The translations under genes were made by a program, and so were the position numbers. Source: Actinopolymorpha pittospori (GTDB lineage Bacteria; Actinomycetota; Actinomycetes; Propionibacteriales; Actinopolymorphaceae). From it: a stretch of 64,000 nucleotides of DNA. The notes under the pieces are model-generated. The model saw nothing but the letters and a program-made list of their open reading frames with translations, was not told the DNA's origin and made no database searches. Location of the stretch: NCBI RefSeq assembly GCF_014873875.1, contig NZ_JADBEM010000001.1, forward strand, positions 9,610,001 through 9,674,000. Direction: 5' to 3'. Of the stretch, positions 47,521-51,432 are shown in pieces. Positions within the stretch are counted from its first letter, which is position 1. Each line of letters starts with the position of its first letter.

Positions 47521-48309
47521 ATGAACCGCTACGAACGGCTCAACGCGATCCTGGAACTCGTCGCCGAGCGCGGCCGGATCGACGTCGAGACCCTGTCCGG
47601 CGAACTCGACGTCTCGACCGCGACCATCCGGCGCGACCTCGACCACCTCGCTCAACAGCAGTTCCTCACCAGGACCCGTGGTGGCGCGGTCGCGCACAGT
47701 GTCGCCTACGACCTGCCGCTTCGCTACAAGACCGCCCGCCAGGCGACGGAGAAGCAACGCATCGGCCAGGCGGCCGCCGATCTCGTCGAGGTCGGGATGG
47801 TGATCGGGATCAACGGCGGCACCACGGCCACCGAGGTCGCCCGCGCCATCGCCACCCGCACCGACCTGCGGTCGCCCGACGGAGGCCGCCGCGCCGTCAC
47901 CATCGTCACCAACGCCGTCAACATCGCCAACGAGCTGACCGTGCGCCCGCACGTCAAGATCGTGGTCACCGGCGGTGTCGCCCGGCCACAGTCCTACGAG
48001 CTCGCCGGACCGCTCGCGACCCACATCCTCGAAGGCGTGAGCCTCGACCTCGCCATCCTCGGCGTGGACGCCGTCGACCCGATGTACGGCGCCAGCGCCC
48101 ACCACGAGGGCGAGGCCGACATCAACAAGTTGATGGCCTCCCGGGCCCGGCAGGTCGTCGTGGTCGCCGACAGCTCCAAGCTCGGCTCACAGGCGTTCGC
48201 CCGGATCCGGCGGCCGGAGGAGATCGACCTGCTCATCACCGACGTCGGCGTCCCCGACGACGCGGTGGCGAAGTTCGAGGAGGCCGGCGTCAAGGTCATG
48301 TGCGTCTGA
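47521..48309 (+). CDS. DeoR/GlpR-family regulator (AgaR-like)
   Basis: A 262-residue repressor. The N-terminal HTH is clear (NRYERLNAILELVAERGRID, VSTATIRRDLDHLAQQQ), followed by the DeoR sensor domain (IGINGGTTATEVARAI, VTNAVNIANELT, DLAILGVDAVDP). Sensor domains of this family bind phosphorylated sugars. Divergent placement beside the SIS-ROK-NagA-aldolase operon matches AgaR in known aga loci, so an aminosugar-6-phosphate is the likely inducer. A hairpin follows the stop. Confidence 0.92.
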   Translation: MNRYERLNAILELVAERGRIDVETLSGELDVSTATIRRDLDHLAQQQFLTRTRGGAVAHSVAYDLPLRYKTARQATEKQRIGQAAADLVEVGMVIGINGGTTATEVARAIATRTDLRSPDGGRRAVTIVTNAVNIANELTVRPHVKIVVTGGVARPQSYELAGPLATHILEGVSLDLAILGVDAVDPMYGASAHHEGEADINKLMASRARQVVVVADSSKLGSQAFARIRRPEEIDLLITDVGVPDDAVAKFEEAGVKVMCV

Positions 48310-48310
48310 T

Positions 48311-48337
48311 CGCGTAACACGCACACCCGGTTACGCG
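48311..48337 (+). terminator. Short hairpin after the DeoR gene
   Basis: CGCGTAAC pairs with GTTACGCG (8 bp) around an 11-nt loop, two bases past the stop. It is a modest terminator candidate. Confidence 0.4.
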
Positions 48338-48378
48338 CGGCAGCCGTGTCTCGCTCCGCTCGTGTAGTTTCACGGCTC

Positions 48379-49224
48379 GTGCGCATCCTTCACGTGTCCG
48401 ACCTCCACATCGAGCCCGAGCCCGAGGAACGCCTGCCCGGCCTGATGAGCACGCTCGCGAACGACCGCGAGCCACTGCGCCGCGTCGGTGCCGACCTGAT
48501 GATCGTCTCCGGCGACCTCACGACCTACGGCAGTTCGAGGCGTGACCATCTCGCCCAGGCGCGCGAGTGGCTGGACAGCCTCGGGATCCCCTACCTCGCC
48601 GTTCCCGGCAACCACGACCTCGGGCCGAGCCGGATCCGGGGCGAGCGCAACCCCCACCAGGAGGGGTTCGAGGACGTCGAGTTCAAGCAGACGGGCTATG
48701 GCCGCACGTTCGGGCCCGACCCGTTGGTCGTCCGCGACCTCGACCGGCTCCGCGTCGTCGGGGTCGCGCTGCGCGAGGACGACCTCGACGGCGTACTCCC
48801 CCGGCTGACCGAGCTGATCGGCGCCGACACCCGGCCGGTGATCCTGGTCGGTCACTATCCGCTCGTGCCCACGCGCGAGCCGAAGCCGCACACCGACTTC
48901 GGCTCGGAGACGTTCGTCCCGCGGGCCGGCGCCGTCCTGCTCGACCTGGTCCGGCGCAGCCCGAACGTCGTCCTCTACGCGTGCGGCCACGTGCACGTCA
49001 ACTCCGCCCGCCCGCTCGCGCCGCACTGCCTCCAGGTGACCGCCGGTTCGCTCGGCCAGGGCGCCAGCACCTACCGGGTCTACGACGTCGACGAGACGGG
49101 TCTCGGCTACTCCACCGTGCTCGGCAGCGGGCCGCTGATCTTCTGGAACACCTTCGACCCGGCGCTGGCGGCGGAGTTCTCCCTCGGCACCGGCACGGAA
49201 CGCACCGGCAGGATCACCTTCTGA
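48379..49224 (+). CDS. Calcineurin-like metallophosphoesterase
   Basis: A 281-residue phosphoesterase. All metal motifs are present: DLH in ILHVSDLHIE (residue 8), GDL in VSGDLTTYG, GNHD in AVPGNHDLG, H in LVGHYPL and GHVH in ACGHVHVN. It may act on cyclic nucleotides or other phosphodiesters; the substrate is not evident. GTG at 48379 is chosen because TAGTTT ends eight bases before it, the leaderless pattern seen elsewhere here, and because it places DLH at the usual position. Confidence 0.88.
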   Translation: MRILHVSDLHIEPEPEERLPGLMSTLANDREPLRRVGADLMIVSGDLTTYGSSRRDHLAQAREWLDSLGIPYLAVPGNHDLGPSRIRGERNPHQEGFEDVEFKQTGYGRTFGPDPLVVRDLDRLRVVGVALREDDLDGVLPRLTELIGADTRPVILVGHYPLVPTREPKPHTDFGSETFVPRAGAVLLDLVRRSPNVVLYACGHVHVNSARPLAPHCLQVTAGSLGQGASTYRVYDVDETGLGYSTVLGSGPLIFWNTFDPALAAEFSLGTGTERTGRITF

Positions 49225-49269: not shown

Positions 49270-49298
49270 TTGTCTGTTTCGCCGACACCGCGTACGGT
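49270..49298 (+). promoter_or_regulatory. Promoter of the putative RNA element
   Basis: TTGTCT (49270-49275) and TACGGT (49293-49298) are 17 nt apart, a good actinobacterial SigA-type promoter. Transcription would start near 49305, about six bases before the extended Shine-Dalgarno sequence. Confidence 0.6.
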
Positions 49299-49304
49299 CG
49301 TGCG

Positions 49305-49532
49305 TACACGAGGAAGGAGGTGGTCCAGCGTATGCATAGCTTTGGGACTCGTGAGGTGGCTGTCCGCTAGCCGCTGTCCCTTGAAGGACCGACTGCCGAT
49401 CACCGGCTCGTCCTGATGGCACCCGCCGCGGTAACGCGGCGTGAGTGCCGGATGGCGGCCGGCGAAGCCAAGGCAGCCACCCGACCCGCGGGCGCTGGTA
49501 CTTGTCCCCCCAGCACACAAAGCCCGCGGGTC
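49305..49532 (+). ncRNA. Putative structured RNA with very long anti-16S Shine-Dalgarno
   Basis: The RNA would begin with AGGAAGGAGGTGGTCCAGC (49311-49329), which can pair with the last 19 or so bases of actinobacterial 16S rRNA (17 Watson-Crick pairs and two G-U). A 12-codon frame follows. Further on, CGCCGCG-GTAA-CGCGGCG forms a hairpin with a GNRA loop (49424-49441), closed by an outer GGCAC/GTGCC stem. A second hairpin has a perfect 11-bp stem (49483-49493 with 49522-49532) and an inner GCTGG/CCAGC stem. No plus-strand gene follows for over 1 kb. The rest of the gap to 49720 shows nothing. Confidence 0.5.
49332..49370 (+). CDS. 12-residue leader peptide ORF behind the extended Shine-Dalgarno
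   Basis: ATG to TAG encodes MHSFGTREVAVR. The start lies two bases after the end of the 19-nt complement to 16S rRNA, and 11 bases after the GGAGG core. The reading frame is intact and uses common codons. Its role is probably regulatory or ribosome-binding rather than as a free peptide (inference). Confidence 0.5.
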   Translation: MHSFGTREVAVR

Positions 49533-49720
49533 GTCCCATGCCCGGACCCGGCGATCCGCTCGCCGTGGCCGGGCATTCGTGTCGTGGGGGGTACGCCGGC
49601 CCGTGCCGTCCATCCCGGAATGTCCGTACCACCGACTGGCCGGAACCGGGCACGGCTCAGCTGTCGAACCAGGTGCTGGATCCCGCCGGGAGCGCCGGAC
49701 GTCGGCCGCCGGACGGCGAA

Positions 49721-50593
49721 TCAGGGCGCCAGGCGCTCGAGGACCCAGCCCTCACCCTCGCGGCGGTAACCGATCCGGTCGTGCAGGCGACCGTGCCGGC
49801 CCTGCCAGAACTCCACCGTCTCCGGCCGGACGCGGTATCCGCCCCAGAAGTCGGGCAGCGGAATCTCCTCGTCCTCCCCCCACCGCGCCTCCACCTCGGC
49901 GTACGCGCGGTCGAGGGCGGCCCGATCGGCCACCACCTGGGACTGCGGGCTCGCCCAGGCACCGAGCCGGCTGTCGCGAGGCCGGCTCGCGAAGTAGGCG
50001 GCAGACTCCTCCCGGCTGACCCGCTCGGCGGTGCCGGTGACGCGGACCTGGCGTTCCATCGCGTGCCAGGGAAAGACGAGTGCCGCCCGCGGGTTGGCCC
50101 CGAGATCGGCCGCCTTGGCCGACTCGTAGTTGGTGTAGAAGACGAAGCCCCGCTCGTCGAGTCCCTTCAACAACACGGTGCGGGCGGACGGGACGCCGTC
50201 GGGCGTGGCGGTGGCGAGCACCATGGCGTTCGGCTCGGGCACCTCACCAGCGAGCGCGTCGTCGAGCCACGCCGCGAACTGCGTCAACGGGTCGGGGGCC
50301 ACGTCCGCCTCGTCGAGTTCACCACGCGCGTAGCGCCGGCGCAGGGCCGCGAGACCGGCCGCCGGAGCGCCGGGCGGAAGGCTGACCGGTGGCCCGACCG
50401 GGACGGTCGGAACCGGCGCGGCGCTCGGCACCTCCGGGACCGGCGGGAACGGCGGCCGCTCCTCGGGTCGGCGACCCGGTATCGGTGGACCGTCAGGAGA
50501 CACCACACCGGCCGCACCGTCGGCGGCGGGGATGGCCGCGGCAGAGGTGTCGACGGGGGGAAGGTCGGCGGCGTCGCCGTGCGCCTGCTCCAC
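49721..50593 (-). CDS. pdxH: Pyridoxamine 5'-phosphate oxidase with N-terminal extension
   Basis: This FMN enzyme oxidises pyridoxamine or pyridoxine 5'-phosphate to PLP. The core has all the family marks: LRRRYARGELDEADVAPDPL, PNAMVLATATPDGVPSARTV, LLKGLDERGFVFYTNYESAK, RQVRVTGTAERVS, SRLGAWASPQSQ and the C-terminal FWQGRHGRLHDRI ... LERLAP. The protein is 290 residues against about 215-230 normally. The extra 75-80 residues are Pro-rich (PVPEVPSAAPVPTVPVGPPV) and look disordered. GTG at 50593 is preceded by TAGGGT with eight bases between, the leaderless pattern. A later start that omits the extension cannot be excluded. Confidence 0.93.
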   Translation of the reverse strand: MEQAHGDAADLPPVDTSAAAIPAADGAAGVVSPDGPPIPGRRPEERPPFPPVPEVPSAAPVPTVPVGPPVSLPPGAPAAGLAALRRRYARGELDEADVAPDPLTQFAAWLDDALAGEVPEPNAMVLATATPDGVPSARTVLLKGLDERGFVFYTNYESAKAADLGANPRAALVFPWHAMERQVRVTGTAERVSREESAAYFASRPRDSRLGAWASPQSQVVADRAALDRAYAEVEARWGEDEEIPLPDFWGGYRVRPETVEFWQGRHGRLHDRIGYRREGEGWVLERLAP

Positions 50594-50697
50594 GAGTCCC
50601 GACCCTAGCCCTGCCGGGCCGTGTCGGCGCGGTGGACTCGCGTCGCACCGCGTCGACGGCCTCGCCATGGACCGCCGACGGTGTGATCGTGGGCACC

Positions 50698-51432
50698 ATG
50701 ACGAACATGACCGAGCCGAACGGACCGGATCGACCTCCGCCACCTCCGCGTTCCTGGCTGCTGGACCGGCCGCTGACCGGGTTCGCCCTGCCCCACGGAC
50801 GGCTGGGTTCGTTGCTGGGACGGGTGATGGCGGTACTCGGCGGAGCCGAGCAGCGGGAGGTGTCGAAGCTGCTGGAGGTACGCCCGGGCGAGCGCGTGCT
50901 GGAGGTCGGCTACGGGCCCGGAGTCCTGCTCGCCCTCCTGGTCGAGGCCGGCGCCACGGTCGCCGGCGCCGATCCGTCCCCGCAGATGTGTGCCTTGGCC
51001 CGGCGCCGCAACCACGCGGCTGTCGAGGCGGGACGGGCAGACCTGCGCGTGGGTACGGCGGAGCGCACCGGCTTCGACGAGGGCGCCTTCGACGCGGCCG
51101 TCTCGGTCAACAACGTGCCGATGTGGTCCGACCTGGCGGCGGGGATGCGGGAGCTCCGTCGCGTCGTACGTCCGGGCGGCCGGGTGGTGGTCACCTGGCA
51201 CGGCGGCTCGCGCCCGACCCGGGTGGGACGCCGGATGACGCTGGACGCGCAGGTGCTCGACCGCATCCTCACGAGCATGCGGGACACCTTCGGAACCGCC
51301 GAGCTCCACCACGGCACCCGGGTCGTCGCCTTCCGCGCCACCCGTCCACTCGATCATGCCGGCGAGACCATCGATGATCATGCTCGTGATCAGGGGGACG
51401 AACGGGCGCCAGGAGACCATCCGGCTTCGTGA
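50698..51432 (+). CDS. SAM-dependent class I methyltransferase
   Basis: A 244-residue methyltransferase. The SAM motif is VLEVGYGPGVLLALL (about residue 64), followed by VAGADPSPQMCALARRR and the post-motif LRRVVRPGGRVVVTWHGG. About 35 Pro-rich residues precede the fold and about 25 charged residues follow it. It is encoded divergently from pdxH and upstream of serC on the same strand, without obvious coupling to either. The acceptor substrate is unknown. Confidence 0.82.
   Translation: MTNMTEPNGPDRPPPPPRSWLLDRPLTGFALPHGRLGSLLGRVMAVLGGAEQREVSKLLEVRPGERVLEVGYGPGVLLALLVEAGATVAGADPSPQMCALARRRNHAAVEAGRADLRVGTAERTGFDEGAFDAAVSVNNVPMWSDLAAGMRELRRVVRPGGRVVVTWHGGSRPTRVGRRMTLDAQVLDRILTSMRDTFGTAELHHGTRVVAFRATRPLDHAGETIDDHARDQGDERAPGDHPAS

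Follow-up and report, generated by a model that had tools for sequence, protein, structure and literature searches.

Ms_IGR-5, a family of actinobacterial RNAs, combines an extended Shine-Dalgarno sequence with a short open reading frame (ORF) whose start, stop, and reading frame seem to be selected, whereas its amino acids are not. As comparison of homologues shows, successive stretches of this ORF can pair with other parts of the same RNA: codons 5–6 with the terminator loop, codons 6–8 with the 5′ end, and codons 8–11 with the strand that precedes the terminator. Ms_IGR-5 may thus be an RNA worked by ribosomes, transcribed on its own and mostly from a single copy, with the ORF serving as a ribosome track rather than as a peptide gene. 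This reading, which rests on comparative sequence evidence, could prove right or wrong with about equal ease.

The window is the whole stretch of DNA that was analysed, 64,000 nucleotides of the Actinopolymorpha pittospori genome, and positions refer to it throughout. The earlier note on this DNA had left open whether the element already has a name; an Rfam search supplies one, matching RF02471 (Ms_IGR-5, Actinobacteria sRNA) with 101.4 bits against a gathering cut-off of 45 (E 1.2e-21) and covering the covariance model end to end (1–184 of 184). The window element is a member of this known family, with which it shares the 5′ core, stop region, and terminator, and nothing differs in membership. 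Two other Rfam matches were set aside: Scr3202, known from Streptomyces, reached 25.7 bits against a cut-off of 52, and CC2171 reached 19.5 bits against 75. The sub-threshold Scr3202 match (49479–49580) spans the terminator and the GC-rich sequence that follows immediately. A tmRNA or tRNA was also rejected, as ARAGORN found none in the window and no tmRNA family reached its gathering score.

There is a single RF02471 match in the whole 10.56-Mb source genome. The family is present in 44 of 57 relatives, with one match each, and in 249 of the 394 class genomes sampled, only two of which (G137 and G380) hold two matches. A model of the 5′ domain alone, run on a separate draw, found the RNA in 220 of 345 class genomes, a similar rate that leaves the gaps in the distribution unfilled; here, two matches were seen in G127, G137, G172, and G215. 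Within the order, the sampled genomes of two genera (g7 and g9) gave no match, and a third genus (g6) had the RNA in one of its listed genomes. Among 396 genomes drawn from the phylum, 70 had one match each, 35 of these above the family cut-off. A pattern search for deep-lineage copies returned 13 stretches, from records labelled Actinomycetota or Actinobacteria bacterium. No match was found in a phage collection. The one match in a plasmid collection (L173, NZ_LN868939.1, 133589–133654) comprises the first 66 bases of the RNA, in a stretch without a listed feature; the record is a 2.66-Mb sequence of Nocardia farcinica that is labelled a plasmid and is probably chromosomal. In the passages of the open PMC literature that name it, Ms_IGR-5 has RNA-seq support in S. 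lividans and is given as an sRNA unit for S. avermitilis; it may be identical to the Streptomyces RNA scr4389.

The comparisons below draw on a working set of 138 loci, made up of 98 that belong to the order and class (those with the highest scores plus 40 picked across families) and 40 deep loci taken from 42 hits in other classes, 33 of which score below the gathering cut-off yet contain the core. The alignment of these loci (A1) has 138 rows, 131 of them distinct. The features of the window locus are collected in Table 1.

Table 1. Ms_IGR-5 and its surroundings in the window; arms and partners are predicted.
Feature	Position	Strand	Remarks
DeoR-type regulator (PF00455, PF08220), then metallophosphoesterase (PF00149)	47521–49224	+	Left of the RNA
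Promoter	49270–49298	+	TTGTCT (49270–49275), 17-nt spacer, TACGGT (49293–49298)
RF02471 match	49306–49539	+	
Predicted RNA 5′ end	about A49306	+	
P1, 5′ arm	49307–49312	+	CACGAG, at the RNA 5′ end; pairs with 49348–49353
Extended Shine-Dalgarno	49311–49329	+	AGGAAGGAGGTGGTCCAGC; 19 nt against the 16S tail, two G-U pairs
P1b, 5′ arm	49323–49326	+	GUCC within the Shine-Dalgarno; one of two possible partners of GGAC
ORF	49332–49370	+	12 codons, ATG (49332, 2 bases past the Shine-Dalgarno) to TAG; peptide MHSFGTREVAVR
Pseudoknot arm (alternatively P1b, 3′ arm)	49345–49348	+	GGAC, codons 5–6
P1, 3′ arm	49348–49353	+	CUCGUG, codons 6–8
Second Shine-Dalgarno-like hexamer	49353–49358	+	GAGGUG, complementary to 16S CACCUC; 9 nt ahead of the stop; in 138/138 loci
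P2, 5′ arm	49355–49364	+	GGUGGCUGUC, codons 8–11
P3, 5′ arm	49365–49368	+	CGCU, ends at the first base of the stop codon; segment also paired by Rfam
GNRA-loop hairpin	about 49425–49440	+	GTAA loop; in the region of variable length
P3, 3′ arm	49461–49464	+	GGCG
One-sided bulge	49465–49471	+	AAGCCAA, at the place of GAAUYCC in relatives
P2, 3′ arm (P2′)	49472–49481	+	GGCAGCCACC, directly before the terminator
Terminator-like hairpin	49482–49533	+	CGACCCGCGGGC/GCCCGCGGGTCG, directly after P2
Terminator-loop partner of GGAC	49504–49507	+	GUCC
pdxH (PF01243, PF10590)	49721–50743	−	Convergent right-hand neighbour

The element looks like a stand-alone RNA, as the earlier note had proposed. The promoter can be read where that note placed it, and it is conserved: a TANNNT motif 21–23 nt upstream of GGAGG is present in 116 of the 138 homologues, whereas a control window placed 250 nt upstream has it in 0 of 138, and TTG stands at a spacing of 16–20 nt in 89 of the 127 homologues with a −10 element. 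A terminator-like hairpin closes the RNA. The metallophosphoesterase gene ends about 80 nt upstream. Downstream, the next of the scanned plus-strand ORFs to bear a Pfam family encodes a methyltransferase, some 1.3 kb away if it starts at ATG 50698, and the two scanned plus-strand ORFs ahead of it match no Pfam family. In the pdxH ORF, the PNPOx domain begins at residue 160 of 340, so that either the protein is much extended at its N terminus or the true start lies further in.

An ORF, competing hairpins, and a terminator within one RNA are together attenuator-like, and the element could therefore be read as regulating the next gene in cis, as a leader or attenuator. Heuristic gene calls put the first gene downstream on the other strand in 79 of the 138 homologues and on the same strand in 53, with none called in 6, and in the window itself pdxH converges on the RNA from the right. 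Because the downstream gene may lie on either strand, the RNA is not a leader, and a cis role is unlikely; the attenuator was rejected on gene orientation and is very improbable.

The 16S rRNA of the source genome ends in ...GCGGCTGGATCACCTCCTTTCTAAGG (two operon copies were found), so that the 19 nt and two G-U pairs given in the earlier note hold. The sequence GRRAGGAGGTGRTCC occurs three times in the genome—at the RNA locus and as the antisense of two 16S ends—which makes the RNA locus its only sense site. All 138 homologues have a match of 15–22 nt, with a mode of 17 (measured against the 16S tail of the source genome). The length given in the earlier note thus holds for this locus and not as a family figure, and the same applies to its reach into the base of helix 45: given the range of lengths, pairing of the 3′ AGC into that helix is not a feature of the family. 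The core of the Shine-Dalgarno is outside the conserved helices, between P1 and the possible P1b. In the minimum-energy fold of the window RNA, 49317–49327 pairs with 49333–49343, which takes up much of the Shine-Dalgarno and part of the AUG; partly paired to codons 1–4 in this unguided fold, the Shine-Dalgarno of the window RNA may not be open. Codons 2–4 vary across the family, and such pairing is therefore not likely to be a family feature.

Complementarity of this length in every homologue, together with the unique sense site and a GAGGUG hexamer that precedes the stop by 8–9 nt in 137 of 138 loci, would suit a ribosome decoy, in which the long Shine-Dalgarno mainly titrates 30S subunits and the short ORF serves to clear or park them. 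Titration would, however, require a very high copy number, and it has no need of an elaborate fold; moreover, the usual GUGGUCC pairs with the 16S tail through a G-U, where GUGAUCC would be a perfect match. A decoy is thus distinctly unlikely.

The 12-codon frame, two bases past the Shine-Dalgarno, is read in the window just as the earlier note described it. Across the 138 loci, the ORF has 10–15 codons and a standard start lies 8–13 nt from GGAGG. In the 98-locus set, ATG, GTG, or TTG stands 7 codons before GAGGUG in 97 loci and a stop follows immediately past codon 12, likewise in 97. L051 departs from the first rule, with ATT as its start, and L016 from the second, with CAG and then TAG. 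Standard starts account for 118 of the 138 (ATG 56, TTG 52, GTG 10), and the remaining 20 are near-cognate (CTG, ATC, ATT, and ACG). The stops are UAG in 118, UGA in 14, and UAA in 5, with L016 stopping one codon later. Several deep lineages have AUU (L115, L116, and L119) or AUC (L108, L120, L126, and L139) where others have AUG, UUG, or GUG, and these keep the same long Shine-Dalgarno, an observation that bears on initiation-factor control.

The stop holds a fixed place behind GAGGUG in 137 of the 138 loci (a gap of 8–9 nt). Counted from the first G of the hexamer, it lies at 15 nt in 133 (TAG 114, TGA 14, TAA 5) and at 14 nt in 4. In L134, L135, and L138, and also in L129 with its ATT start, the stop is one base nearer GAGGUG, and the start has moved along with it, the frame being kept. 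Frame controls agree: ATG, GTG, or TTG falls in the Shine-Dalgarno window in the frame of the stop in 118 of 138 loci, against 6 and 3 in the other frames, and when CTG, ATT, and ATC are included, the figures are 137 against 30 and 4. The frame is free of stops as far as the stop itself in 135 of 138 loci, compared with 9 and 36 in the other two frames. Since start, stop, and frame are all kept under these controls, it is the reading frame as such that appears to be selected. One reading in the earlier note, a small RNA whose peptide is incidental, is not supported as far as the ORF is concerned: the frame and both its ends appear to be selected, even though the amino acids drift.

A gene for a functional 12-residue peptide would account for a conserved ORF behind a strong Shine-Dalgarno, and codons 8–9 (EV) are invariant in all 84 distinct ORFs of the 98-locus set. 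These ORFs encode, however, 79 different peptides, and the entropies at positions 1, 2, and 3 are 1.38, 1.55, and 1.12 for codon 2; 1.70, 1.77, and 1.39 for codon 3; and 1.25, 1.65, and 1.65 for codon 4; variation at the first two positions is therefore about equal to that at the third, without a consistent third-position excess. Conserved bases instead form blocks, such as GGAC and GAGGUG, regardless of codon position. The invariant residues fall within GAGGUG, where third positions are invariant too, and in one lineage this hexamer is read in another frame; the invariance of GAGGUG may itself have other causes. Amino-acid conservation beyond the RNA constraint was not found among the 84 ORFs. 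A functional peptide was rejected on these codon statistics and is very improbable.

The predicted RNA of the window is strongly folded (−127.6 kcal/mol, z −5.6), with none of 200 shuffles as good, and its unguided minimum-energy fold shows the terminator and all of P1, P2, and P3, whereas P1b is absent. Conservation of the ORF and hairpins in related genomes, on which the earlier note had made its reading depend, was found: the Shine-Dalgarno, the ORF, and the structure are all conserved. Covariation among the predicted helices is clear for P1 and for the pseudoknot described below, and moderate for P2. In A1, P1 joins CACGA, at the 5′ end of the RNA, to the UCGUG that precedes AGGUG. Pair 5–57 shows no misfit among the 131 distinct sequences (AU 94, CG 19, GC 16, GU 2), and pair 6–56 shows one (CG 107, AU 17, GC 5, UA 1); the inner pair 8–54 is unpaired in 85 of 131. 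When P1 and P1b are taken together, 88.5% of cells are paired, whereas sliding the strands gives 46.6% at best. Changes on both sides number 92 cells; shuffles give 28.8, and none of the 500 comes up to the observed count. On two of five measures, the number of double-change pairs (322 of 500 shuffles as high) and the pair types (66 of 500), the two helices are not beyond shuffles, and the covariation of P1b is weak.

P2 was followed in 115 of 122 sequences, 7 rows being dropped, and is 90.3% paired there, with 86.8 as the highest shuffle value; examples are GGTGACCATC:GATGGTCACC and GGTGTCCGTC:GACGGACACC. The anchors used to locate it fix part of pairs 1–4; pairs 5–10, counted apart, are paired in 85.5% of 690 cells, while shuffles reach no more than 80.4 and slid strands no more than 55.1. 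The P3 helix at the stop region is weak, and a competing local hairpin around the stop is weakly above shuffles (16.0 versus 12.4). Between P3 and P2, a simple pattern finds the GAAUYCC bulge in 92 of the 138 loci, with 1 of 138 in control windows. Both strong hairpins reported in the earlier note are in the sequence, the one with the GNRA loop sitting in the part that varies in length; where P2′ is found, its distance from GAGGUG is about 50–131 nt.

The structure drawn in Rfam differs from this arrangement in that it lacks counterparts of P1, P2, and the pseudoknot and leaves the P2′ strand unpaired. Its first helix joins the Shine-Dalgarno (model positions 14–19) to the ORF (55–60). On A1, 87.9% of the cells in this helix are paired, albeit with no cell changed on both sides among the 131 distinct sequences, and the helix does no better than shuffles.

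The putative pseudoknot pairs GGAC of codons 5–6 with GUCC of the terminator loop. For its examination, 391 genomes of the order were searched for ORFs with GGAU in place of GGAC; such ORFs occur in 42 of these genomes, in 3 of 40 genera, and 30 of the 42 were taken as loci. Among 122 distinct sequences, GGAC is found with GUCC in 91 and GGAU with AUCC in 27, while 4 could not be assigned and none is mixed, the loop pattern being limited to RTCC. A second loop finder gave 81, 27, and 3 mixed among 111 sequences; in L020, GGAU faces a GUCC loop as a wobble when inspected by eye. The GUCC of the Shine-Dalgarno varies independently: 12 GGAU/AUCC sequences keep it, and 3 GGAC sequences have AUCC there. 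As GGAU is confined to 3 of 40 genera of one order, and the counts were made without a tree, the changes may reflect few events.

The deep lineages supply further combinations. L103, L114, and L117 have CGACC with GGUCG (L104 likewise, with a wobble), the Shine-Dalgarno being unchanged. Of the 37 deep loci in which a loop was found, 18 have a best pairing of 6–7 bp, a figure from a best-of search without a control; with the second finder, the four central bases pair in 30 of 36. The outer pair of the pseudoknot forms in 19 of 36 deep loci (shuffle maximum 17) and in 53 of 111 in the other set, a count reached by 16 of 2000 shuffles. No clear pseudoknot was seen in L129, L134, L135, L138, and L141.

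This intramolecular pairing also bears on whether Ms_IGR-5 is an ordinary trans-acting, base-pairing sRNA, its Shine-Dalgarno-like segment and ORF being by-products of an antisense or structural element. A stand-alone gene with a promoter and a terminator-like hairpin would fit such an sRNA, for which the GUCC loop and the GAAUYCC bulge are possible seeds. Against it, the loop GUCC is accounted for by pairing within the RNA, and an element acting as RNA only has no need of a start, a stop, and a frame that are kept while the codons are interchangeable. An ordinary sRNA is therefore unlikely.

If Ms_IGR-5 is instead operated by ribosomes, its cycle might run as follows. A 30S subunit would load on the Shine-Dalgarno, where the 3′ part of the 16S pairing would occupy the proximal GUCC and leave GGAC for the terminator loop. 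The ribosome would then read the 10–15 codons; in doing so, it would have to open P1, P2, and the pseudoknot, which would melt. It would end at the stop 8–9 nt past GAGGUG, a second Shine-Dalgarno-like element that could hold it. The shape of the RNA, through its stability or its contacts with other partners, might in this way report or use ribosome loading. A frame kept open while the peptide drifts does suggest a refolding of the RNA by ribosomes in which the peptide itself is beside the point.

Ribosome reads on Ms_IGR-5, reported for M. abscessus and M. smegmatis in a footprint study, count in favour of operation by ribosomes. Against it count the caution given in that study that non-coding RNAs often show ribosome reads, the unguided fold that partly closes the Shine-Dalgarno, the weak P1b, the 3 mixed sequences among 111, and the 30 of 138 loci with a wrong-frame start once near-cognates are allowed. 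A fuller version makes translation the operating force and not the product: the GUCC of the Shine-Dalgarno and that of the terminator loop would compete for one GGAC, codons would matter only as pairing partners, the stop would lie at initiation spacing behind a second Shine-Dalgarno so that ribosomes can be held, and the RNAs would form a phylum-wide class that directly senses or uses ribosome availability. In all these particulars, the proposal is tentative and rather doubtful.

Known systems resemble Ms_IGR-5 in part. The trp and erm leaders are leader-peptide attenuators, and here, as in those, translation of a short ORF would change RNA folding; unlike them, Ms_IGR-5 has no consistent downstream gene, and its amino acids are not conserved. 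Dual-function sRNAs such as SgrS and RNAIII likewise unite structure and a small ORF in one RNA; in these, however, the peptide itself is functional, whereas the peptide sequence of Ms_IGR-5 drifts. In the RF2 gene (prfB), an internal Shine-Dalgarno a very short distance before a stop causes frameshifting. Ms_IGR-5 shares the Shine-Dalgarno-like hexamer close before the stop, but at 8–9 nt, which is near the usual initiation spacing.

The Ms_IGR-5 family itself is known; the passages that name it in the open PMC literature are silent on its function, ORF, and long Shine-Dalgarno and on the anatomy of P1, P2, and the pseudoknot. With the 19-nt match as a family figure excepted, the description in the earlier note is accurate, and what is conserved makes a stronger case than the note assumed; its interpretation is supported in part. 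The RNA is widespread, occurring across the class and in deep branches of the phylum and, according to the passages cited above, in Streptomyces and mycobacteria. A revised structure, combined with evidence of selection for a readable ORF, turns a catalogue entry into a concrete hypothesis on RNAs worked by ribosomes, and an RNA of this kind would account for ribosome footprints on an annotated non-coding RNA.
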